Origin: Pseudodonghicola xiamenensis DSM 18339
Lineage (GTDB): Bacteria > Pseudomonadota > Alphaproteobacteria > Rhodobacterales > Rhodobacteraceae
Reading direction: 5' to 3'
DNA: 64,000 bases
Assembly: GCF_000429365.1 (NCBI RefSeq)
Contig: NZ_AUBS01000002.1
Coordinates: forward strand, 124,001-188,000
Shown: one piece after another, positions 26,979-37,370 of the stretch
Numbering within the stretch: the stretch's first letter is position 1
How the letters are laid out: every line of letters starts with the position of its first letter
Notes under the pieces: generated by a model
Told to the model about the DNA's origin: nothing
Databases searched by the model: none
The model's input: the letters and a program-made list of their open reading frames with translations, nothing else
Program-made: the position numbers and the translations under genes

Positions 26979-27425
26979 TCAGAAATCCCCGGGGGCGCAT
27001 TGCAGGCAGACAAGGCCGGCGTTGCGCCAGAACTCCACCACCGCGCTGCGGTCATCGACCACCAGCCAGGGGGTGAACCCATCCGCGCGCATCTTGTCCA
27101 GAAGATGCGATTTCACATCCGGATCGGACCAGGTGTCCGCCCCCTCCGGGCGCAGATAGATGCCATCATAGGCAAGACCGGCGCGCGCCAGCCAATCCTC
27201 GGTCCGATGCTGCCAGCCCGCCGGTCGGCCGGAGCACAGCACGATCCCCTCGCCCGACTGCCGCAGCCGGTTCAGCAGCCGCGCCACCGGTTCGATCACC
27301 GCCGTGTCGTGCATGGCGTCGTGAAACGCGTCCCAATGCTTGTCCTCGCCGTGGACCAGATGGCCCAGCCGGTCGGCATCAAATCGCGCCAGGGTGCCAT
27401 CAATATCGAAAACCACGCATTCCAT
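26979..27425 (-). CDS. HAD family phosphatase resembling the 3'-phosphatase domain of polynucleotide kinase
   Basis: A 148-aa compact HAD hydrolase. Motif I is VFDIDGTLA with nucleophile Asp7 and Asp9; motif II is VLCSGRPAGW; and the C-terminal VVDDRSAVVEFWRNAGLVCLQCAPGDF carries the acidic motif and strongly recalls the end of T4 Pnk, which removes 3'-phosphates from nucleic acids and nucleotides. It is the last gene of the six-gene transporter operon, 14 bp after the histidine phosphatase. AAGGAA precedes the ATG. In this context it may dephosphorylate an imported nucleotide or sugar phosphate; the exact substrate is inference. Confidence 0.85.
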   Translation of the reverse strand: MECVVFDIDGTLARFDADRLGHLVHGEDKHWDAFHDAMHDTAVIEPVARLLNRLRQSGEGIVLCSGRPAGWQHRTEDWLARAGLAYDGIYLRPEGADTWSDPDVKSHLLDKMRADGFTPWLVVDDRSAVVEFWRNAGLVCLQCAPGDF

Positions 27426-27439
27426 TATCGTTCCTTTCG

Positions 27440-28000
27440 TCAGTCTTTCGCGCCGGCAGCCTGCCAGACGCGATCCCCCCAGCCGCCTGTGGCTGGGGTA
27501 AAGAGGATGGGCGTCGCATTGGCCGCGCGCGCCCCGTGTTCACTGCCACCGGTCAGCCGGCGCACAGCGCGGATGGTGCCGGAATGAGCCACCAGAACCG
27601 GCAACCCTTCACGTGGATCACTCAGCGCGCCAACCAGGGCGGCATGTACCCGCGCCAACATGTCGGCCCAGGCCTCGCCCGCCTCGGGCGTGTCTTCGCG
27701 GCGGATCATCTCGGCCTGTGGCCGCCCCTCCAGCGCCCCCCAATCGCGTTCACGCAGCCCCTCGACGACCAGAGCCACCCGCCCCGGAAACCCCAGCGCG
27801 GCAGTTTCGCGCGCCCGGTCCTGCGGGCTGACGAAGACCAGCGGCTCCGCCGGCCAGACCAGCCGCGCCAGCGCCGCCGCCTCGGCCCGCCCCTTGTCGG
27901 TCAATTGCGCCTCGATCCGGCCGGCGATCAGACCGGCGCAGTTGGCGTCGGTCTCACCATGGCGGATAAGGATGAAGGCTCGATCAGGCAGCGGCGTCAT
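27440..28000 (-). CDS. Histidine phosphatase family protein
   Basis: A 186-aa branch-1 histidine phosphatase (phosphoglycerate mutase-like fold). The catalytic RHG is LIRHGETDAN with His14, and the second His is in VLVAHSGTIRAV (about 138-149); the acid Glu is in ERDWGALEGR. It removes phosphate from a small phospho-compound in the cytoplasm. Its start overlaps the MBL-fold gene by 4 nt (ATGA), placing it firmly in the ABC-transporter operon. Substrates in this family vary widely (phosphosugars, alpha-ribazole phosphate, others). Confidence 0.92.
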   Translation of the reverse strand: MTPLPDRAFILIRHGETDANCAGLIAGRIEAQLTDKGRAEAAALARLVWPAEPLVFVSPQDRARETAALGFPGRVALVVEGLRERDWGALEGRPQAEMIRREDTPEAGEAWADMLARVHAALVGALSDPREGLPVLVAHSGTIRAVRRLTGGSEHGARAANATPILFTPATGGWGDRVWQAAGAKD

Positions 28001-29067
28001 AGGGTGATCTTTTCGTGAAAGAAGACATCGGCGCCGGTGCGGTCGACCACCAGATACTCCTCGGGCAGAGTACAGAACAGCGGCGCATAGCGTTTCGCCC
28101 CCAGCCGCCGCACCAGCCCGAGCTGATCGCGCAACGGCGGGTGGACGTTCCAGCGGGTGAAATGGCCACCCGGATGGGCACAGATGGCACGGGCGTGTGC
28201 CGTCATATGGCCGGTGAAGACCACATGGAAATCCTGGCCCAGCCTCCCGGCGTCGCGGGCGGCCTTTACCAGCGTCCAGGCCATGCCGCCATCCGCGTTG
28301 GGGGTATCGCAGATCAGGAACCGCGCCGCCGGGTCGAAGGGCTTGTCCAACAGCGGCCGGATCGCGCCGGCGCTGTCGGCGATGCCCGCCGCAGGCCCCG
28401 CCGCCAGCGCCTGGGCGACGAAATCGCGGCAGGTGTCGTCCAGCCGCACGTCGCCCTGATCCATCAGGTGCAGCGCCAGCTCTCCTGCCCGGCCCGAGGG
28501 CGGCACCGGCAACAGCACGGTGCCCGGCAGCCAGCGCAGCAGCGCGTTCAGATCGGCCTTGCGCCGGTCCTGCGTCACATCGTCCAAGTGATAGGAGGCG
28601 TCGATCAGCGCGGTTTCCGCCGCCGGCGGCTCGTCAAAGCCGAACCAATGGGATTCCTCCGACCAGTCGCCGGAATAGAACAGCCCGCCGCCCAGATCGA
28701 AATGGAACCAGACCCCGCCCAGAGCATGGCCGTTGCGGCCCGTCGTCAGCCGTACGCCCTCGATCTCGATCTGTCCGCGCACCGGAATTTCGTGCACTTC
28801 CGCCCCCGGCGGCAACGACCGCGCGGTGATCGCAGTGGTATAGATCGGCAGGCCGGCGCCGATTGCATGGGCAGCACCACCGATATGATCGACGTGATCA
28901 TGGGTGATGAAGACGGCATCGGCCCCCTCCAGCCAGGCCGGATCGAAGGGAGAGCTCGCCTCGGGGCCATGGCCGCAATCCAGCAACCAGACGCGGCCCC
29001 GATGGGTCAGCCGCAGACAGGCCGGCCCCTTGTCGCCGACGCCCGAAAGAACCTCTATCTCAGCCAT
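27997..29067 (-). CDS. MBL-fold metallohydrolase
   Basis: A 356-aa metallo-beta-lactamase-fold hydrolase. The metal motif HDHVDH is at residues 56-61, with a later GRNGHALGG and YSGDWSEES giving further His/Asp ligands. The C-terminal half (FTGHMTAHARAI, then VRRLGAKRYAPLFC) faintly recalls beta-CASP or ribonuclease-like MBL proteins, but this is not firm. It differs in length from PhnP (about 250 aa). I chose the ATG at 29067, which overlaps the ATPase gene by 8 nt. Operon context suggests phosphodiesterase action on an imported organophosphate; this is inferred. Confidence 0.88.
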   Translation of the reverse strand: MAEIEVLSGVGDKGPACLRLTHRGRVWLLDCGHGPEASSPFDPAWLEGADAVFITHDHVDHIGGAAHAIGAGLPIYTTAITARSLPPGAEVHEIPVRGQIEIEGVRLTTGRNGHALGGVWFHFDLGGGLFYSGDWSEESHWFGFDEPPAAETALIDASYHLDDVTQDRRKADLNALLRWLPGTVLLPVPPSGRAGELALHLMDQGDVRLDDTCRDFVAQALAAGPAAGIADSAGAIRPLLDKPFDPAARFLICDTPNADGGMAWTLVKAARDAGRLGQDFHVVFTGHMTAHARAICAHPGGHFTRWNVHPPLRDQLGLVRRLGAKRYAPLFCTLPEEYLVVDRTGADVFFHEKITL

Positions 29068-30118
29068 GGGCCACCTCCGCGGCAAAGCCCCAGGGCCGCC
29101 CGATCGTCAGGCCGAGCGAGGCGCCCTGACGCACCCGCGCGGTGCTGAAGGCCACCAGATCGAGCCCGCCTTCGGCAATCAGCCGCAGCCGGAACCGCCC
29201 GCCCAGATAGGTGCATTGGCGCACCTCGGCACGCAGCGCGCCCTCATCACCCAGAGTGATATCCTCCGGTCGGATGCATAGCCGATCCGGCCCTGCCACC
29301 CGGGCGCGGGCGGACACCTCCTGCCCCAGCAGTCGCACCGTAACGTCGCCAGTGTCTGAAGGACCGCAAGGCTCCACCGGCACCACGGCCCCGTCACCGA
29401 CGAAGCCCGCGACAAAGGCGTCGGCGGGTTCACTATAGAGAACCTCGGGCGTGGCGAATTGCCGGATCCGGCCGCCATCCATCACCGCCACCCGGTCGGC
29501 CATCGCCATCGCCTCGGTCTGGTCATGCGTGACATAGACCATGGTGGCGCCGGTGCGTTGGTGAAAGGCGGCGAACGCTTCCTGCATCGTGGCGCGCAGC
29601 GACAGGTCGAGGTTGGCGAGCGGTTCGTCCAGCAGCACGGCAGAAGGATCGGCGACCAGGCTGCGCGCCAGGGCGACCCGCTGCCGCTGTCCACCCGACA
29701 GCGCCGCCGGCATCCGGTCGGCATAATCGGTGAGCCCGGTCATCTCCAGCGCGGCGGCGACGCGCGTGCGACGCTCTGCCCTGGAAAACCCGCGCACCTC
29801 CAACGGATAGGCGACGTTGCGCGCCACGCTCATATGCGGCCAAAGCGCATAGGACTGGAACACGATGCCCATGTTCCGCTCTTCCGGCGGCAGAAGCTTG
29901 CCGCTCCGGGCGGAGGCGACGAGTGTCCCGTCAACCGCGATCTCGCCTTCGGTCGGCGCCTCGAAACCCGCCAACAGGCGCAGCAGCGTGGTCTTGCCGC
30001 AACCCGAGGGACCGAGGAGCGCGACGAATTCGCCATCGTCAAACGTGGCGGACACCTCGGTCAGCGCCACATGGCTGTCAAAGCGCTTGCCGAGTGCGGT
30101 CAATGTCAGTTCTGCCAT
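29060..30118 (-). CDS. ABC transporter ATP-binding protein (FbpC/PotA type)
   Basis: A 352-aa ATPase. Walker A is GPSGCGKT (36-43), the Q-loop lies in VFQSYALWPHM, the signature is LSGGQRQRVALARSL, Walker B is VLLDEPLANLD and the switch His is in VTHDQTEAMAMADR. Residues about 245-352 form a TOBE-like C-terminal domain as in iron(III), spermidine and hexose-phosphate importers. It energises the fused permease just upstream, which it overlaps by 13 nt. The start ATG at 30118 gives the standard MAELTLTALGKRF N-terminus. Confidence 0.95.
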   Translation of the reverse strand: MAELTLTALGKRFDSHVALTEVSATFDDGEFVALLGPSGCGKTTLLRLLAGFEAPTEGEIAVDGTLVASARSGKLLPPEERNMGIVFQSYALWPHMSVARNVAYPLEVRGFSRAERRTRVAAALEMTGLTDYADRMPAALSGGQRQRVALARSLVADPSAVLLDEPLANLDLSLRATMQEAFAAFHQRTGATMVYVTHDQTEAMAMADRVAVMDGGRIRQFATPEVLYSEPADAFVAGFVGDGAVVPVEPCGPSDTGDVTVRLLGQEVSARARVAGPDRLCIRPEDITLGDEGALRAEVRQCTYLGGRFRLRLIAEGGLDLVAFSTARVRQGASLGLTIGRPWGFAAEVAHG

Positions 30119-31815
30119 GGCACAACTCCCTTGGGCAGGCGGCGGGAAGCGAGCTGGATCGCGCCCATCAGTACGATCACCACCCCCACCACCGCGACGG
30201 AGACAGCCGAGGCCATCACCGTCTCGCCACTGTCTTCGAGGTTGAAGATCACCACCCCCAGCGTCTCGGTCCCCGAGGACCAGAGAAGCGCGGAAACGGT
30301 CAATTCGTTGAAAGCGGTCAGAAAGACCAGGATCGCCCCGGCCGCCGCCGCCGGCGCGGTGAGCGGCAGGATGATCGTCCGCAGCCGCCGGCCCAGGCTG
30401 GCGCCGGCCGATTGCGCCGCCTCCTCCATCGCCGGATCGAGCTGCGCCAGCGCCGATTGCACCGGGCGCAGCATCACGGTGAAGAACCGCGCGATATAGG
30501 CGATGAAGATGATCCAGATGGTGCCGTAAAGCGTCAAATCGGTAAGCGGCAGATTGATGAACAGAAGAATGCAAGCGATCGCCAGCACCACGCCCGGCAG
30601 CGCATAGGGCAGATCGACCAGCAGGTCGAAAGTGCGGCTCAGCCGGTTGGGGCGGCGCAGCATCACCCAGGCCAGGGGCAGGCTGATCGCCATCAGCACC
30701 ACCGCCGCGCCAGTGGCCAGCAGGAAGGAATTGCCAAAGGCCCGCGCGGTCACCGGTTGGCGGAACAGCGCCTCGTACCAGCCGCCAAGGCTGATCGTCT
30801 GCCAATTCAGCGGCACCCCATAGGCTGGCACCAGAGAGGTGGCGGCCAGCGCCAGGAGCGGCAACACCAGAATGGCGAAGATCACCAGCCACAGCGCCAG
30901 TTCCACCGGCAGCCGCAGGTGCCTGAGGCTGACCTCGAGCGGGCGGTTGGCCAGACCGATCAGCCCATAGGCACGCCGCCGCAGGAACAGCCGGTTCAAA
31001 AGCACCCCGGCCAGTGCCACGACGCCGATCAGCAACGCCAGAACCGCCACTTCGGTCAGTACCGAAGTGCCCAACCCCGCCAGCCGCTGATAAATCAGCG
31101 TCGGCAGGGTGGAATACCCCGCCGGTATCCCCAGCATCGCCGGGATGCCGAAATTGCCAAGCGCGGTGACAAAGGCCATGGCGGTGCCGGCTGCAAGGCT
31201 CGGCACGCTCAGAGGCAACACCACCTGCCACCAGAGCCTGAGCCCACGGGCACCGGAAATCCGCGCCGCCTCGACCGCCTCGGGCGGGATGGCCCGCAAT
31301 CCGGCGCGCAGGGTCAGGAATACGATGGAGGTATGTTGAATGCCCAGCAGCACGGCGATCCCCAGCGGCGAATGCAGCGGCTGCGGCGAACCGAGCGGCG
31401 GCGCCAGACCGATGGTCTTCAGCAGCACGGACGACGGCCCCATCACCTGGGTCCAGGCCAGGGCGGTGATCTGCGGCGGGATCATCATCGGGATCATCAG
31501 GCAGAAAACCAGCGCCCCCTTGGCCCGGATATCGGTCAGCGCCACCAGAAAGGCGAAAGCACCGCCCAGAATCACCGAGATCACCGTCCCCACCCCGGCA
31601 GTGAAGATCGAATGCCACAGCGCCGACAGCGTGGTCGACTGCGCCAGAACCTCGGCCACAGGCGCCAGACTGAAACCCGCGGGGCCAGAGACGCCTTCGA
31701 CCAGCAGACGAACGACAGGCGCCAGCGTCAGCAGGATCGCCAGCCCCATCAAGGCGGAAAGCAGCCAGTCGCCCGACCGGCTGCCCCCCATGTTCGTTGC
31801 CATCTTCGGCGTCAT
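30106..31815 (-). CDS. ABC transporter permease, fused double-domain (FbpB type)
   Basis: A 569-aa inner-membrane protein with about twelve helices and two binding-protein-dependent permease units (residues about 70-280 and 340-560). Each carries an EAA-like loop: EAARISGARGLRLWWQVVLPLS in the first and EEAAQSAGASLGRRLRTIILPL in the second. This layout is shared by FbpB-type iron(III) and AfuB-type hexose-phosphate importers. Its ATG overlaps the stop of the binding-protein gene by 4 nt. It forms the membrane pore of the importer. Confidence 0.94.
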   Translation of the reverse strand: MTPKMATNMGGSRSGDWLLSALMGLAILLTLAPVVRLLVEGVSGPAGFSLAPVAEVLAQSTTLSALWHSIFTAGVGTVISVILGGAFAFLVALTDIRAKGALVFCLMIPMMIPPQITALAWTQVMGPSSVLLKTIGLAPPLGSPQPLHSPLGIAVLLGIQHTSIVFLTLRAGLRAIPPEAVEAARISGARGLRLWWQVVLPLSVPSLAAGTAMAFVTALGNFGIPAMLGIPAGYSTLPTLIYQRLAGLGTSVLTEVAVLALLIGVVALAGVLLNRLFLRRRAYGLIGLANRPLEVSLRHLRLPVELALWLVIFAILVLPLLALAATSLVPAYGVPLNWQTISLGGWYEALFRQPVTARAFGNSFLLATGAAVVLMAISLPLAWVMLRRPNRLSRTFDLLVDLPYALPGVVLAIACILLFINLPLTDLTLYGTIWIIFIAYIARFFTVMLRPVQSALAQLDPAMEEAAQSAGASLGRRLRTIILPLTAPAAAAGAILVFLTAFNELTVSALLWSSGTETLGVVIFNLEDSGETVMASAVSVAVVGVVIVLMGAIQLASRRLPKGVVPWQN

Positions 31816-32780
31816 TTCACACCGAAGATCTCAGCAAAGCGGGTCTTGTTCGCTTCGGCGTTTTTCAGCGCAGCAGCCGGATCGAAGGCCATCAGCTTGA
31901 TCTCTTCACGCGCTGGGAAACCTTCAGGCATGCCGGTATCGGGCCGTGCCGGGATATATCCCATATCGACAACCAGTTTCTGGCCCGTCTCGCTCAGCAC
32001 GAAGTCGACGAATTTCTCAGCCGCCGGCACGTTCTTCGCCGTCGACAGGATCGCCACCGGCTCGGTCACATAAGAGACTCCCTCGGCCGGAAAGACGAAT
32101 TTGACCGGCGAGCCCTTGGCCATGTTCCGGATCGCCAGGAAATCGACAACCATGCCATAGGGTTTTTCGCCCGAGGCAACTGCCTTGAAAGTGCCGCCAT
32201 TGCCACCCTCGGCCCGCGCATGTTCGGCTGCCAGCTTTTCATAGAAATCCCAACCCAGCGCCGGATTGCCGGTCAGCGTGGCCAGATGAATCAGCGCCGC
32301 GCCGGAATAGAGCGGCGACGGCATCGCGATCATGTTGTCCATCCCGTCGCCCGCCAGATCGGCCCAGGCCAGCGGCGCCTTGGCGGCCCCGGTGTTATAG
32401 ACGATGCCGGTGGTGATCACCTTGGTCGAATAATAATAGCCGTCCGCACTGTAGAGCGCCGGGTCATAGGCCACGGCCTCGGGCGACTTGTAGGCCAGCA
32501 GTTCGCCCTTCTGCGCCATGCCTTCCATGGTCACGGAATCGGCGATCAGCAGCACGTCGGGCTGCGGTGCGCCGGCCTCGATCTCGGCGGTCAGGCGGGC
32601 CATCAGCTTGGTGGTGCCGTCGCGCACCCAATCAACCTTGATGCCGGGGTTGGCCGCCTCGAAGGCATCGACGGTCTGCTGGGCATCCGCATTGGGCTGC
32701 GAGGTATAGAGGGTCAGGGTTTCAGCCTGGGCACCGAAGGGCACGGCCAGGGCGAGAAGGGCGGCAAAGCGCAGTTTCAT
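31812..32780 (-). CDS. ABC transporter periplasmic substrate-binding protein (iron(III)/organophosphate type)
   Basis: A 322-aa binding protein with a Sec signal peptide (MKLRFAALLALAVPFGAQA, cleavage after AQA). The mature start ETLTLYTSQPNADAQQ matches the FbpA/AfuA/aminoethylphosphonate-binding family of type II SBPs. The conserved paired tyrosines expected of true ferric-binding FbpA are not clearly in place, so iron is doubtful. It is the first gene of the operon, with AGGAG upstream, a Pho-box-like element at 32865 and a palindrome at 32806. I infer that it binds a phosphorylated organic compound. Confidence 0.9.
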   Translation of the reverse strand: MKLRFAALLALAVPFGAQAETLTLYTSQPNADAQQTVDAFEAANPGIKVDWVRDGTTKLMARLTAEIEAGAPQPDVLLIADSVTMEGMAQKGELLAYKSPEAVAYDPALYSADGYYYSTKVITTGIVYNTGAAKAPLAWADLAGDGMDNMIAMPSPLYSGAALIHLATLTGNPALGWDFYEKLAAEHARAEGGNGGTFKAVASGEKPYGMVVDFLAIRNMAKGSPVKFVFPAEGVSYVTEPVAILSTAKNVPAAEKFVDFVLSETGQKLVVDMGYIPARPDTGMPEGFPAREEIKLMAFDPAAALKNAEANKTRFAEIFGVK

Positions 32781-32805: not shown

Positions 32806-32819
32806 CTTTCGTTCGAAAG
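32806..32819. promoter_or_regulatory. Palindrome, putative DeoR operator (transporter side)
   Basis: CTTTCG-TT-CGAAAG, a perfect inverted repeat 26 bp before the binding-protein start codon and downstream of the putative -10. A related CTTTCGAAGG sits at 32958-32967 next to the deoR-type gene start. Shared half-sites in a divergent promoter suggest binding by the neighbouring DeoR protein. Confidence 0.5.
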
Positions 32820-32850
32820 CCAAGATGCGGCCTCCGGCGAATGGCCCCCG

Positions 32851-32882
32851 GCTATAGACGCCGCATGACAGCTTCGTGACAC
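32851..32882 (-). promoter_or_regulatory. Pho box and -10 element of the transporter operon
   Basis: On the - strand the units GTGTCAC and CTGTCAT are separated by 4 bp (GAAG), matching the PhoB-binding direct repeat (CTGTCAT, 11-bp period). The second unit is exact. Eight bp further is TATAGC (plus-strand 32851-32856), a plausible -10, in the arrangement expected where PhoB replaces the -35. The start codon is 85 bp from the box. Confidence 0.65.
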
Positions 32883-32957
32883 TCGGCAAAAAACAGCAAA
32901 AATAAATTCCTTTGCAGAAATGGAGCGTCAGGCTAGGCAAGGGATTGGCGAAAACCA

Positions 32958-32967
32958 CTTTCGAAGG
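32958..32967. promoter_or_regulatory. Second CTTTCG-containing element (regulator side)
   Basis: CTTTCGAAGG overlaps the ribosome-binding region of the DeoR-type gene and shares the CTTTCG half-site with the palindrome at 32806. It is possibly an autoregulatory site. Confidence 0.4.
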
Positions 32968-32975
32968 AAAATAGA

Positions 32976-33743
32976 ATGTCCGCCCCGGACCTGGCCCGCC
33001 GCCGCGACCGAATCGTCAATCTCCTGTCGATCCACGGCAGCCTGTCGGCCGCCGATCTAGCCGGGCGGCTGGCAGTTTCGGTGCAGACCATCCGCACCGA
33101 CCTGCGCGAACTGGACGAACAGGGCGTGGTGCGCCGCCGCCATGGCGAGGCGAGCCTGAACCGGGGCACAGAAAACATCGGCTATCAACCGCGCCTTGCC
33201 ATCGCGCGGGACGAAAAGGGGCGGATCGGCCAGGCAGTCGCCAGGCTGATCCCCGACGGCGCGCGCGTCGCGCTCGGCACCGGCACCACGGTCGAAGAGG
33301 TCGCCCGCGCCCTGATCGGGCGGGAAAACCTGCTGGTGGCGACCAACAACATCCACGCCGTACTGGCCCTGCGGGCGGCACCAGGCGTCACCGTGCATCT
33401 GGCCGGGGGCAAGGTCCGGCTGCGCGACCTCGATATCATCGGCGCCGAAAGTCAGGAATTCTTCGGCCAGTTCCGGCTGGATGTCGCCGTCTTCAGCTGC
33501 GGCGCCCTGTCGCCCGAGGGTGAGGTGATGGATTTCACCCCCGAGGAAATCCGCGCCCGCCGCGCCATCGCCGCCTGCGCCGCGCGCACCGTTCTGATCC
33601 TCGACAGCACCAAGATCGACCGCCCGGCGCCGCTGAGGCACGGGCACCTTCAGGACTATGACGTGGTGGTTCACGGCGGCACCCTGCCCGAAGACACCGC
33701 CGCCGCCTGCGCCGCTGCCGATTGCCGGCTTATTGCGGTCTGA
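32976..33743 (+). CDS. DeoR/GlpR family transcriptional regulator
   Basis: A 255-aa repressor. The N-terminal winged HTH (RRRDRIVNLLSIHGSLSAADLAGRLAVSVQTIRTDLRELDEQGVVRRRHG) is standard DeoR. The C-terminal DeoRC sensor has GTGTTVEEVARAL, the phosphosugar-binding loop, and VATNNIHAVLAL. DeoR-type sensors typically bind phosphorylated sugars, which fits the phosphatase-rich operon it faces. It is divergent from the transporter operon (195 bp between starts) and probably represses it. AAGGA precedes the ATG. Confidence 0.92.
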   Translation: MSAPDLARRRDRIVNLLSIHGSLSAADLAGRLAVSVQTIRTDLRELDEQGVVRRRHGEASLNRGTENIGYQPRLAIARDEKGRIGQAVARLIPDGARVALGTGTTVEEVARALIGRENLLVATNNIHAVLALRAAPGVTVHLAGGKVRLRDLDIIGAESQEFFGQFRLDVAVFSCGALSPEGEVMDFTPEEIRARRAIAACAARTVLILDSTKIDRPAPLRHGHLQDYDVVVHGGTLPEDTAAACAAADCRLIAV

Positions 33744-33797: not shown

Positions 33798-33826
33798 GTT
33801 TCACCGATCTGTCACCAAGACGTCAT
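33798..33826 (+). promoter_or_regulatory. Pho-box-like triple repeat upstream of the 5'-nucleotidase
   Basis: Three 7-bp units with 4-bp spacers: GTTTCAC (33798), CTGTCAC (33809) and ACGTCAT (33820). The period is exactly 11 bp, as in PhoB sites. The middle unit is 6/7 to CTGTCAT and the others 4-5/7. It lies 58-87 bp before the start codon. Confidence 0.6.
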
Positions 33827-33884: not shown

Positions 33885-35882
33885 ATGCCCCGTCTTACCC
33901 GCCGCGGCTTTCTGGCCCGCAGCTCCGCACTGGCCGCTGCCGCCGCCGTCTCTCCCGCCATCGTCATCCGTGCCAATGCCGCCCCCGGCGCCGGCGAACT
34001 GGCGATGGTCGCGGTCCAGCCGAACCCCCGCGGCAGCTTTGAAAAGCTCTATCTTCTGAAGGGCGATCCGCTGTCCGGCCCGATCACCACGATCCTGACC
34101 GAAGACGGCGCCACCGAACCCGCCCGCAGCCTGCCCGAGGGCAGCCGTCGGGTGTTGCGGCTGATGCATTTCAACGACATGCACAATCACATGACCGATC
34201 TCGACGGCAAGCGCGGCGATACCCACCGCATGGCGCAGATGGTGCAACTGGTGAAAGCCGCCAAGGCGCAGGCCGGCGACGATGAAATCGTACTGCTCCT
34301 CTCCGGCGGCGACGATCACACCGGTTCGGTCTTTGACGAGCTGATGGGTTGGACCCCGGAAGACTTCGTCGCCGATGCCGGCTATCGTGCCGCCTCTGCC
34401 GCCGGTGTCGATCTCGCCGTTCTGGGCAACCATGAATTCGACCGTGGCGCCGCCCAGCTCAAGATCGGGCTCGACCGCGATGCCGCCTTCCCGGTGCTGT
34501 CGGCCAATGTGAACAACTCGGCCCATATCGCGCGGGACGTCGATTACACCCCCGCCGCCGTGGCCGAGGTGAAGGGGCTCAGGATCGGCTTCATCGGCCT
34601 GACCACCGCCATCGACACCCGGGTCGGCATGGAAAGCGACCCCACCCTGGCCGTCGCCAGCCCGGTGGAAAGCGCCGCCAACCTCTACAAGGCGGTCGAG
34701 GCGGTCTCGGACGTGGTGGTGATCCTGTCGCACTGCGGTTACGGCCGCGGCATGCACCAATCCGGCAAGGCCGGCACCGCCCGGCTGATCGGCGAAGGCG
34801 ATTTCGACATCGCCGACGCCATCGGCCCGATGGCCAGCAAACCCGTGGTGCTGATCGGTGGCCATTCGCACACCCAGCTCAATACCGACGGCATTGACGC
34901 CGACAATATGGTGGCCGGGCTGTTGCTGACCCAGGCCAAAGCCAATGGCCAGTTCCTTGGCGATATCGTGATGTCAGTGGCCCCGGGTCAGGGCCGCGAT
35001 CAGTGGTTCTCCAACGTCTCGCTGCACCCGATCAAGCGCCGCGACGACCGGCTGAAACCGGAGGACGAGAAATTCGCCAACGCCGAGCATGATGGCGATT
35101 TCGATGCCGGTTTCGAGGCGCAAGTGATGGCGCCGATGATCGCGGCGCTCGACGCCAAACTGTCCGAGGTGATCGCCCAGGTCGCCGACGACACCCTGGT
35201 CTCCACCCCGCGCACCATTGCCGACCGCTATGTCGGCGAGGCCGCCATCGGCAACCTGATGAACGACACTCTGGTCAAACGCTCGGCCAGCTTTCCAGGT
35301 GGAGCGGTCGATTTCTCGCTGTTCAACGCCACCGGGCTGGCCCGCGGCATCGCCAAGGGGCCGCTGACCTTCCGCGAATGGTTCGACGTGATGCCCTATG
35401 CCGATGTGATCGACGTCGCCACCCTGACCGGCGCCCAGATCCGCGACATGCTGAATTCGAACGCCAAGCGCATCCTGCGCCCGGAAGAGGTCTCCGGCAC
35501 CGATCTGTCCGAATTCGTCTCACGCGGGTTCCTGCATTTCTCCTCCGGCATCCGTTACCGGATCGCACTGGGTGGCTCTGCGGCCGAGGCGCAGGCGGTC
35601 GACATCACGCTGAACGGCCAGCCGGTGGAAGAGGTGCTGGAGAAACCCTTCACCATGGCCTTCAACAGCTATATCTCGCTCGGCGCCTTTGGTGAGACCT
35701 GGAACGGCAAGCCGATCGGCGGCGGCGTGGCAGGCGATATTCCCAGCTTCGACGTGCGTACCCTGCCCTGGAGCCACACCGGCCTCGTCTATCGTAACGA
35801 GCTGATCGCGGCGCTGCGCGAGATCGGCACCATTTCGGACCAGACCGGCATCATCCTAGACGGTCGTGTCACCGTCGCCTGA
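33885..35882 (+). CDS. Periplasmic bifunctional metallophosphatase/5'-nucleotidase
   Basis: A 665-aa UshA/CpdB-like enzyme that dephosphorylates nucleotides or 2',3'-cyclic nucleotides outside the cytoplasm. A Tat-type signal (RRGFLARSSALAAAAAVSPA) is at 6-25. The metallophosphoesterase domain has HFNDMHNH (95-102), a GGDDHTG metal site, GNHEFD (181-186) and GGHSHTQL. The C-terminal 5'-nucleotidase domain spans about 390-630. I chose the ATG at 33885, which follows a perfect AGGAGG. A triple Pho-box-like element is upstream, so phosphate starvation control is likely. It follows the DeoR gene on the same strand and complements the divergent importer by releasing phosphate or nucleosides in the periplasm. 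Confidence 0.92.
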   Translation: MPRLTRRGFLARSSALAAAAAVSPAIVIRANAAPGAGELAMVAVQPNPRGSFEKLYLLKGDPLSGPITTILTEDGATEPARSLPEGSRRVLRLMHFNDMHNHMTDLDGKRGDTHRMAQMVQLVKAAKAQAGDDEIVLLLSGGDDHTGSVFDELMGWTPEDFVADAGYRAASAAGVDLAVLGNHEFDRGAAQLKIGLDRDAAFPVLSANVNNSAHIARDVDYTPAAVAEVKGLRIGFIGLTTAIDTRVGMESDPTLAVASPVESAANLYKAVEAVSDVVVILSHCGYGRGMHQSGKAGTARLIGEGDFDIADAIGPMASKPVVLIGGHSHTQLNTDGIDADNMVAGLLLTQAKANGQFLGDIVMSVAPGQGRDQWFSNVSLHPIKRRDDRLKPEDEKFANAEHDGDFDAGFEAQVMAPMIAALDAKLSEVIAQVADDTLVSTPRTIADRYVGEAAIGNLMNDTLVKRSASFPGGAVDFSLFNATGLARGIAKGPLTFREWFDVMPYADVIDVATLTGAQIRDMLNSNAKRILRPEEVSGTDLSEFVSRGFLHFSSGIRYRIALGGSAAEAQAVDITLNGQPVEEVLEKPFTMAFNSYISLGAFGETWNGKPIGGGVAGDIPSFDVRTLPWSHTGLVYRNELIAALREIGTISDQTGIILDGRVTVA

Positions 35883-35999: not shown

Positions 36000-37052
36000 T
36001 CACATCACAAGCTGGAACATCAGTCCCGCCAGAACCGCACCCACCAGCCCCAACCCCAGATAAAGCGCAAAAACCCGCGGCTTGACCAGCGACCAGACCG
36101 CAGCCATCGCCGGGATCGAGCTGACCGCACCGGCGATCATGAAGGCCATCGCCGACCCGACACTCATCCCCTGCCCGATCAAGCCGGCCAACAGCGGCGG
36201 CGCCACATAGGAGTTCAGATAGGCCGGCATCCCCACCAGTGCCGCGATAGCGATCGACCCGACGCCTTCGCCGCCGACAAGTTGCGCGATCAGGTCGGCG
36301 GGAACGTAGCGCACCAGAAGCGCCTCCAGCACATAGGCCAGCGCCAGCCATTTCAGCAAGAACAGCCCGTTGGTGAAAACCTCTTTGCGGAAGATTTCCC
36401 GCCGGGGAATTTCGCTCCAGAACCGCCAAACCGGCTTGTCATGTTCCTTCGGGCCGCCGCAGCCGCAACAGCTTTTGCGCTGCACCTGCTTCAACGGTTC
36501 TGACAAGGCCCCGCCCCGCGCCAGAGCCTTGACGGCAAGGCCCCCGAACAGGCCCAGCGCCACCGCCGCCACCGCCTTGGCCAGCGCAAACGGCCAACCC
36601 AGCGCCCCGGCAGTGATCAACAGCGTCGGCGGATCAATCAGCGGAGACGACAGCCAAAAGGCCATCACCGCCGACAACGGCGCCCCCAGAGCCAGCAGCC
36701 CCGCGATGAAGGGAATCACCTGACAGGAACAAAACGGCGCCAACCCGCCCAGAAGGGCCGCGAAAAAGATCATCCGCATCTCTCGCCCTTCAAAGGCCCG
36801 GGCCACCAGCGCTTCGGCCCCCGACGCCTTGAGATAGGCCAGCAGCAGCACCGCGATCACGATATATTTTGCAGTCTGAGCCAGTGCAGCCCCTGCAAAC
36901 AGCCCCACTGGCCCCAGATTTTCCGGATCCAGCACCGCCACCGCCAGCAGCAGCAGCACAATCATCGCCCAGGGCGATTTCAGCCCTTGCAGCATCGCCC
37001 GCAGACGAGACCGCCCGGCCGCCACTGGCCGGATTTGAGTCGCTTCAACCAT
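36000..37052 (-). CDS. Permease of the YraQ/UPF0718 family (ArsP-like)
   Basis: A 350-aa membrane protein with about eight to ten helices. The first half has FCSCQVIPFIAGLLALGAP, matching the conserved CSC-x-VIP loop of this family, and the second half has the related GMPAYLNSYVAPPLL. A cytoplasmic loop (RKSCCGCGGPKEHDK, about 193-207) is Cys-rich and may bind a thiophilic metal. Relatives include the organoarsenical exporter ArsP and Cu/Zn-linked permeases. It overlaps the ArsR regulator by 8 nt, so metal- or metalloid-induced expression is likely. The substrate is inferred. Confidence 0.85.
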   Translation of the reverse strand: MVEATQIRPVAAGRSRLRAMLQGLKSPWAMIVLLLLAVAVLDPENLGPVGLFAGAALAQTAKYIVIAVLLLAYLKASGAEALVARAFEGREMRMIFFAALLGGLAPFCSCQVIPFIAGLLALGAPLSAVMAFWLSSPLIDPPTLLITAGALGWPFALAKAVAAVALGLFGGLAVKALARGGALSEPLKQVQRKSCCGCGGPKEHDKPVWRFWSEIPRREIFRKEVFTNGLFLLKWLALAYVLEALLVRYVPADLIAQLVGGEGVGSIAIAALVGMPAYLNSYVAPPLLAGLIGQGMSVGSAMAFMIAGAVSSIPAMAAVWSLVKPRVFALYLGLGLVGAVLAGLMFQLVM

Positions 37053-37353
37053 CCGTTTTCCCTCCGTCTTCCAGATCGGCGCAACATTCGCTCAGAATAA
37101 AATCGGCCAGTTCCCGCAGCCGTTCGTAATGCGCCCGGTTGATCACCTGGCGCCCCTGCTTTTCCTGCTCCACCACGCCCCCAGCAGCGAGCACCTTCAG
37201 GTGATGCGCAAGCGTCGAAGGCGCGATGCCGGTTCGGTCCTGAATGTCTCCGACGGTCAGCCCGGCACCGCCGGCCCGAACCAGAACGCGCAACACCTGC
37301 AATCGCGAATCCGCCCCCATCGCCGCAAACCCCTGGGCCATTTCTGCCAGCAT
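37045..37353 (-). CDS. ArsR family metalloregulator
   Basis: A 102-aa winged HTH repressor (LTVGDIQDRTGIAPSTLAHHLKVLAAGGVVEQEKQGRQVINRA). It ends in FILSECCADL; the C-terminal Cys pair may be the metal- or metalloid-sensing site, as in ArsR types that lack the ELCVCDL motif. I chose the ATG at 37353 with GGAGGT 7 nt upstream; the TTG five codons before overlaps that site. It heads a two-gene operon with the permease. Confidence 0.92.
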   Translation of the reverse strand: MLAEMAQGFAAMGADSRLQVLRVLVRAGGAGLTVGDIQDRTGIAPSTLAHHLKVLAAGGVVEQEKQGRQVINRAHYERLRELADFILSECCADLEDGGKTDG

Positions 37354-37370
37354 TGCCTGCACCTCCAAAC

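Follow-up and report, generated by a model that had tools for sequence, protein, structure and literature searches.

Pho boxes of the pstS, ugpB and phn kind (E. coli and Sinorhizobium type) are built of 7-nt direct repeats near CTGTCAT with an 11-bp period, are oriented to the gene, and stand in place of the −35 element. Among ABC transporters for phosphorus compounds, AepX of P. putida, from the 2-aminoethylphosphonate (2-AEP) systems, is PhoBR-dependent (PMC8316502), and AfuA of the hexose-phosphate transporter AfuABC coordinates its sugar through His205, Asp206 and Glu229 (PMC4546632). Here, we analyze a site in a 64,000-nt stretch of Pseudodonghicola xiamenensis DSM 18339 (hereafter the window) that precedes a six-gene transporter-phosphatase operon and shares each of these box features. 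The candidate departs from those boxes in that its spacer contains GC and its −10 is followed by a palindrome for a regulator, and it consists of a single dyad (two half-sites) in contrast to the three or four half-sites at pst.

From the sequence, we consider it very probable that this Pho box is functional: PhoB-P at the half-sites would replace the −35 element, the operon would be transcribed from TATAGC, and the DeoR-family regulator would repress the same promoter via CTTTCGTTCGAAAG. On this reading, the Pho regulon of Rhodobacteraceae and Rhizobiales includes a conserved transporter-phosphatase operon that is so far uncharacterised. That speaks for an organic phosphorus compound as substrate where annotation suggests iron or 2-AEP, and the paired PhoB and DeoR sites make a testable two-input promoter. 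No description of the operon was found in the literature by title or opening abstract, a search that does not prove absence.

Table 1. Genes and sites of the locus, in window positions
Feature	Position	Strand	Remarks
HAD phosphatase gene	26979..27425	-	PNKP-phosphatase-like
Histidine phosphatase (branch 1) gene	27440..28000	-	
Metallo-beta-lactamase / beta-CASP-fold predicted phosphodiesterase gene	27997..29067	-	
ABC ATPase gene	29060..30118	-	
ABC permease gene	30106..31815	-	two fused BPD_transp_1 domains
Substrate-binding protein (SBP) gene	31812..32780	-	first of the operon; AfuA/PhnS/FbpA-like fold
Palindrome CTTTCGTTCGAAAG	32806..32819		predicted DeoR operator, downstream of the −10
−10-like hexamer TATAGC	32856-32851	-	8 nt past the box; TAG register at box end +11 conserved
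Pho box	32865..32882	-	half-sites GTGTCAC and CTGTCAT, 11-bp period
CTTTCGAAGG	32958..32967		adjoins DeoR start codon; related sequence TTCGNTCGAA in several relatives
DeoR/GlpR-family regulator gene	32976..33743	+	divergent
Pho-like array GTTTCAC-CGAT-CTGTCAC-CAAG-ACGTCAT	33798..33826	+	weaker; before the UshA-like gene
UshA-like 5'-nucleotidase family gene	33885..35882	+	twin-arginine-type signal

Box sequence and promoter geometry

The box lies inside a 195-bp gap, with the SBP gene on one side and the DeoR-family gene on the other. Direct reading of the bases gives GTGTCAC-GAAG-CTGTCAT on the minus strand from 32882 to 32865; an earlier note on this DNA had claimed this sequence, strand and exact 11-bp period, all of them correctly, and the TATAGC it placed 8 nt after the box is exact in both position and sequence, with GCGGCGTC separating the two. 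The note had further proposed the geometry in which PhoB replaces the −35 element. This holds up as well: no −35 hexamer is present 15–19 nt from the −10 (the best agreement with TTGACA is 3/6), and the −10 stands in the register seen in pstS promoters. The paired repeats are those by which a Pho box is recognized, although the first half-site is weak and the spacer GAAG contains GC, and a box in the −35 position at a fixed short distance from the −10 is the arrangement of a PhoB-activated promoter.

The genome encodes PhoB, with a gene adjoining pst-phoU that scores 352 bits against a curated cut-off of 296. The TIGR00975 pstS model has no match in this genome, so the pst operon was located via phoB. 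Promoters of pstS in the family carry a triple repeat CTGTCATAAAACTGTTACACAACTGTCAC together with what looks like a fourth half-site and a TAG resembling a −10, and their distance to the −10 equals that of the candidate. In the pstS promoters L115–L144 the array is rigid, with three half-sites, a degenerate fourth (AAAAGCATNGC) and TAG 10 nt on.

The gap also holds a putative promoter for the opposite strand, a sigma-70-like GTGACA-16-AAAAAT (32876-32903, plus strand; 9/12 matches, shuffles 0.1) that overlaps the box, and although direct repeats are directional, binding to them could act both ways. The box might on these grounds mainly serve or repress the divergent DeoR gene, with PhoB blocking the overlapping plus-strand promoter. 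However, the SBP gene is favored by the orientation and −10 spacing, both of which are conserved at loci that lack a divergent DeoR gene, and the DeoR strand scores close to zero, which makes this a highly improbable account of the site.

Matrix score and conservation

By consensus counting the candidate is unexceptional. The plain consensus with up to three mismatches matches five times in the window against 3.0 expected, and genome-wide some 29 sites, the majority of them intragenic, equal or beat the candidate; counting against the E. coli consensus as sole criterion was set aside as not decisive. The degenerate pattern STGTCAY-N4-CTGTCAY has the candidate as its sole match in the 4.73-Mb assembly. 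Because consensus counting does not single out the site, we built a matrix from family pstS promoters (21 promoters, 42 dyads), excluding SBP promoters from training. The earlier note had suggested scoring the site with a PhoB matrix against intergenic background, and with the pstS-trained matrix the candidate passes: it scores 16.4 bits, a value reached at 5 of 927,286 positions, and ranks third among 239 sampled promoter-side segments, in a 464-kb background (400 kb of contig 1 plus the window, with crude gene calls) that is less than the whole genome.

This score is on par with those of Pho genes in the same genome, as expected of a Pho box: 17.4 bits for ugpB, 17.9 for phnC and 15.1 for phnG. 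One of the two segments that outrank the candidate precedes a UgpB-like gene (388 bits, cut-off 411). Since the phnC, phnG and UgpB-like promoters score high, the matrix finds known kinds of Pho genes outside its training set. At C1:179192 and C1:112581 this genome (G000) has other high-scoring Pho-like sites; the genes they precede, for an NAD-dependent epimerase and a PAS histidine kinase, are possible further Pho genes judging by these upstream sites.

Tandem half-sites are typical of the OmpR/PhoB family, and the genome encodes about ten full-length PhoB-like response regulators, both of which would suit a reader of the 11-bp repeat other than PhoB. Against this, the half-sites fit a matrix trained on pstS that also recovers the genome's own ugpB, phnC and phnG, and the phosphatases of the operon are consistent with phosphate control. 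Another regulator of this family is thus very unlikely to be what binds here.

Orthologous SBP promoters carry a significant box on the gene strand in 24 of 30 cases, and on the reverse strand in one; some distant homologs (L148, L150, L049 and L091) have no significant box on the gene strand. Over 19 promoters, best scores average 15.0, compared with 4.7 for the reversed matrix, and none of 1000 column permutations matches it, with the reservation that orthologs are a statistically dependent sample and that the shuffle control is first-order resampling. A 4-nt gap between half-sites scores 13.0, and all other gaps at most 6.3. Of 26 orthologous promoters, 21 have the 'TA' of the −10 at box end +11/+12, and 27 of 30 pstS promoters show the same register, measured from the fourth half-site. 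Box sequence and distance to the ATG vary among genera, and in an eight-sequence alignment spanning seven genera the columns without variation lie chiefly in the box (TGTCA and the second half-site), in the TAG and in two TTCG-type regulator sites, including CTTTCG-N2-CGAAA. Among named relatives Pseudodonghicola flavimaris is nearest, with 92% identity in the binding protein. A record titled Nocardioides marinus (L036) holds a roseobacter-type operon with an 80% identical binding protein, and is probably mislabelled or contaminated.

The Pho box is conserved across Rhodobacteraceae and Rhizobiales, and so looks real. That it is a chance repeat in an AT-rich intergenic region, with the operon under DeoR alone, is hardly credible: consensus matches with three mismatches occur in the window about as often as expected and better ones lie inside genes, but the independent matrix ranks the site high, strand, period and −10 distance are conserved across families, and Rhizobium loci without a DeoR gene or palindrome retain the box. 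The case for the site is carried by its score with the independent matrix, its location between genes and its conservation across species. Together, the matrix score, conserved strand, 4-nt gap and −10 register make the activator reading well supported at the level of sequence, in agreement with the earlier note's assignment of the site to the transporter operon.

Predicted DeoR-family control and the neighboring nucleotidase gene

The divergent gene encodes the helix-turn-helix and sensor domains of a DeoR-family regulator, and its sequence, with a conserved adjacent palindrome, is that of a predicted DeoR-family repressor. The palindrome TTTCG-N2-CGAAA is found 16–38 nt upstream of the SBP start codon in every one of the 15 examined loci whose divergent DeoR gene is closely related, and in none of nine examined loci that lack such a gene. 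Among those nine, the Marinomonas locus (L049) has a DeoR that is less closely related, and half-sites only. In its A/T-centred form the palindrome is unique in the genome. A probable second, autoregulatory DeoR site adjoins the regulator's own start codon.

In each of these 15 loci the palindrome comes after the −10, suggesting PhoB activation combined with DeoR repression, and the best reading appears to be one promoter under both. Under phosphate starvation, phosphorylated PhoB bound to the tandem pair of half-sites would stand in for a −35 element and recruit sigma-70 RNA polymerase to TATAGC as the −10. Transcription would start near 32844 and extend through all six genes, from SBP to HAD phosphatase. 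DeoR would repress from its operator, about 25–40 nt downstream of the start, until it meets its phosphorylated ligand. High expression would then depend on phosphate shortage and substrate at once, an AND logic that we infer from the arrangement of sites.

Downstream of the DeoR-family gene, the array before the UshA-like gene is probably a second Pho array. It scores 12.3 and 12.2 bits, and four repeats stand at the equivalent place in the sister species (L114:5953-5992). The UshA-like protein contains the Pfam domains 5_nucleotid_C and Metallophos; the NCBIfam UshA model gives 105 bits against a cut-off of 600. A UshA-like gene beside the operon was not found in other genera within the locus DNA examined. 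Farther on (36000-37368, minus strand) lies an ArsP-type permease gene, Cu/Zn efflux-like, adjoined by an ArsR-family regulator gene.

Operon products and comparison with known transporters

Most Rhodobacteraceae loci that have the DeoR gene preserve the order SBP, permease, ATPase, metallo-beta-lactamase protein, histidine phosphatase, HAD phosphatase; after the transporter, Rhizobium has an endonuclease/phosphatase-family gene and Phyllobacterium a SurE gene. The binding protein was modelled by structure prediction with a pLDDT of 90. The metallo-beta-lactamase protein (356 aa) has a predicted compact beta-CASP fold, and HxHxDH, H114, D134, D156, H287 and H309 are invariant, so that predicted fold and catalytic motifs both identify it as a beta-CASP metallo-beta-lactamase. 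Taken together, the binding-protein fold, the beta-CASP protein, the phosphatases and the Rhizobium and Phyllobacterium neighbors favor import of organic phosphate, perhaps a phosphodiester. More tentatively, and with somewhat less than an even chance of being right, the locus may represent an undescribed alphaproteobacterial organophosphate scavenging system that combines gating by PhoB and a substrate-sensing DeoR, import of a phosphodiester or nucleotide-like compound, an intracellular beta-CASP phosphodiesterase with two phosphatases and, in this genus, a Pho-controlled periplasmic nucleotidase.

The closest solved folds to the binding protein are AfuA and the G6P-binding VcA0625 (8x1a), with TM 0.80-0.81 at ~22% identity. 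Identity with AfuA was rejected: the residues aligned to its sugar-coordinating triad are Val, Asp and Val, with only Asp206 kept in this pairwise, low-identity alignment. Pho control of AfuABC is not described in the portion of PMC4546632 consulted, whereas the operon here has a Pho box. The binding protein shares its superfamily with those of PhnSTUV, AepSTU and AepXVW (PMC8316502), and among NCBIfam models PhnS2, PhnU2 and PhnT2 fit the three transporter subunits best. A 2-AEP transporter was nevertheless rejected, as the scores (120 of 393, 161 of 593 and 312 of 458 bits) fall far under the curated cut-offs; the operon also carries phosphatases in the place of phosphonate enzymes.

The E. 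coli ugp system (PMC4415409) is an organophosphate ABC transporter with Pho boxes and a second regulatory input, as is predicted for the operon here, and the ugpB gene of this genome has a high-scoring site too. The second input is cAMP-CRP in E. coli ugp and a predicted site for the divergent DeoR-family repressor in this locus. With CPSF-73, TTHA0252 and RNase J the operon's beta-CASP protein shares the predicted fold and invariant motifs, but it is smaller than those nucleases and encoded in a putatively Pho-controlled transporter operon. As a Pho box the candidate is ordinary and belongs to a well-known kind; the operon it would control is moderately interesting.
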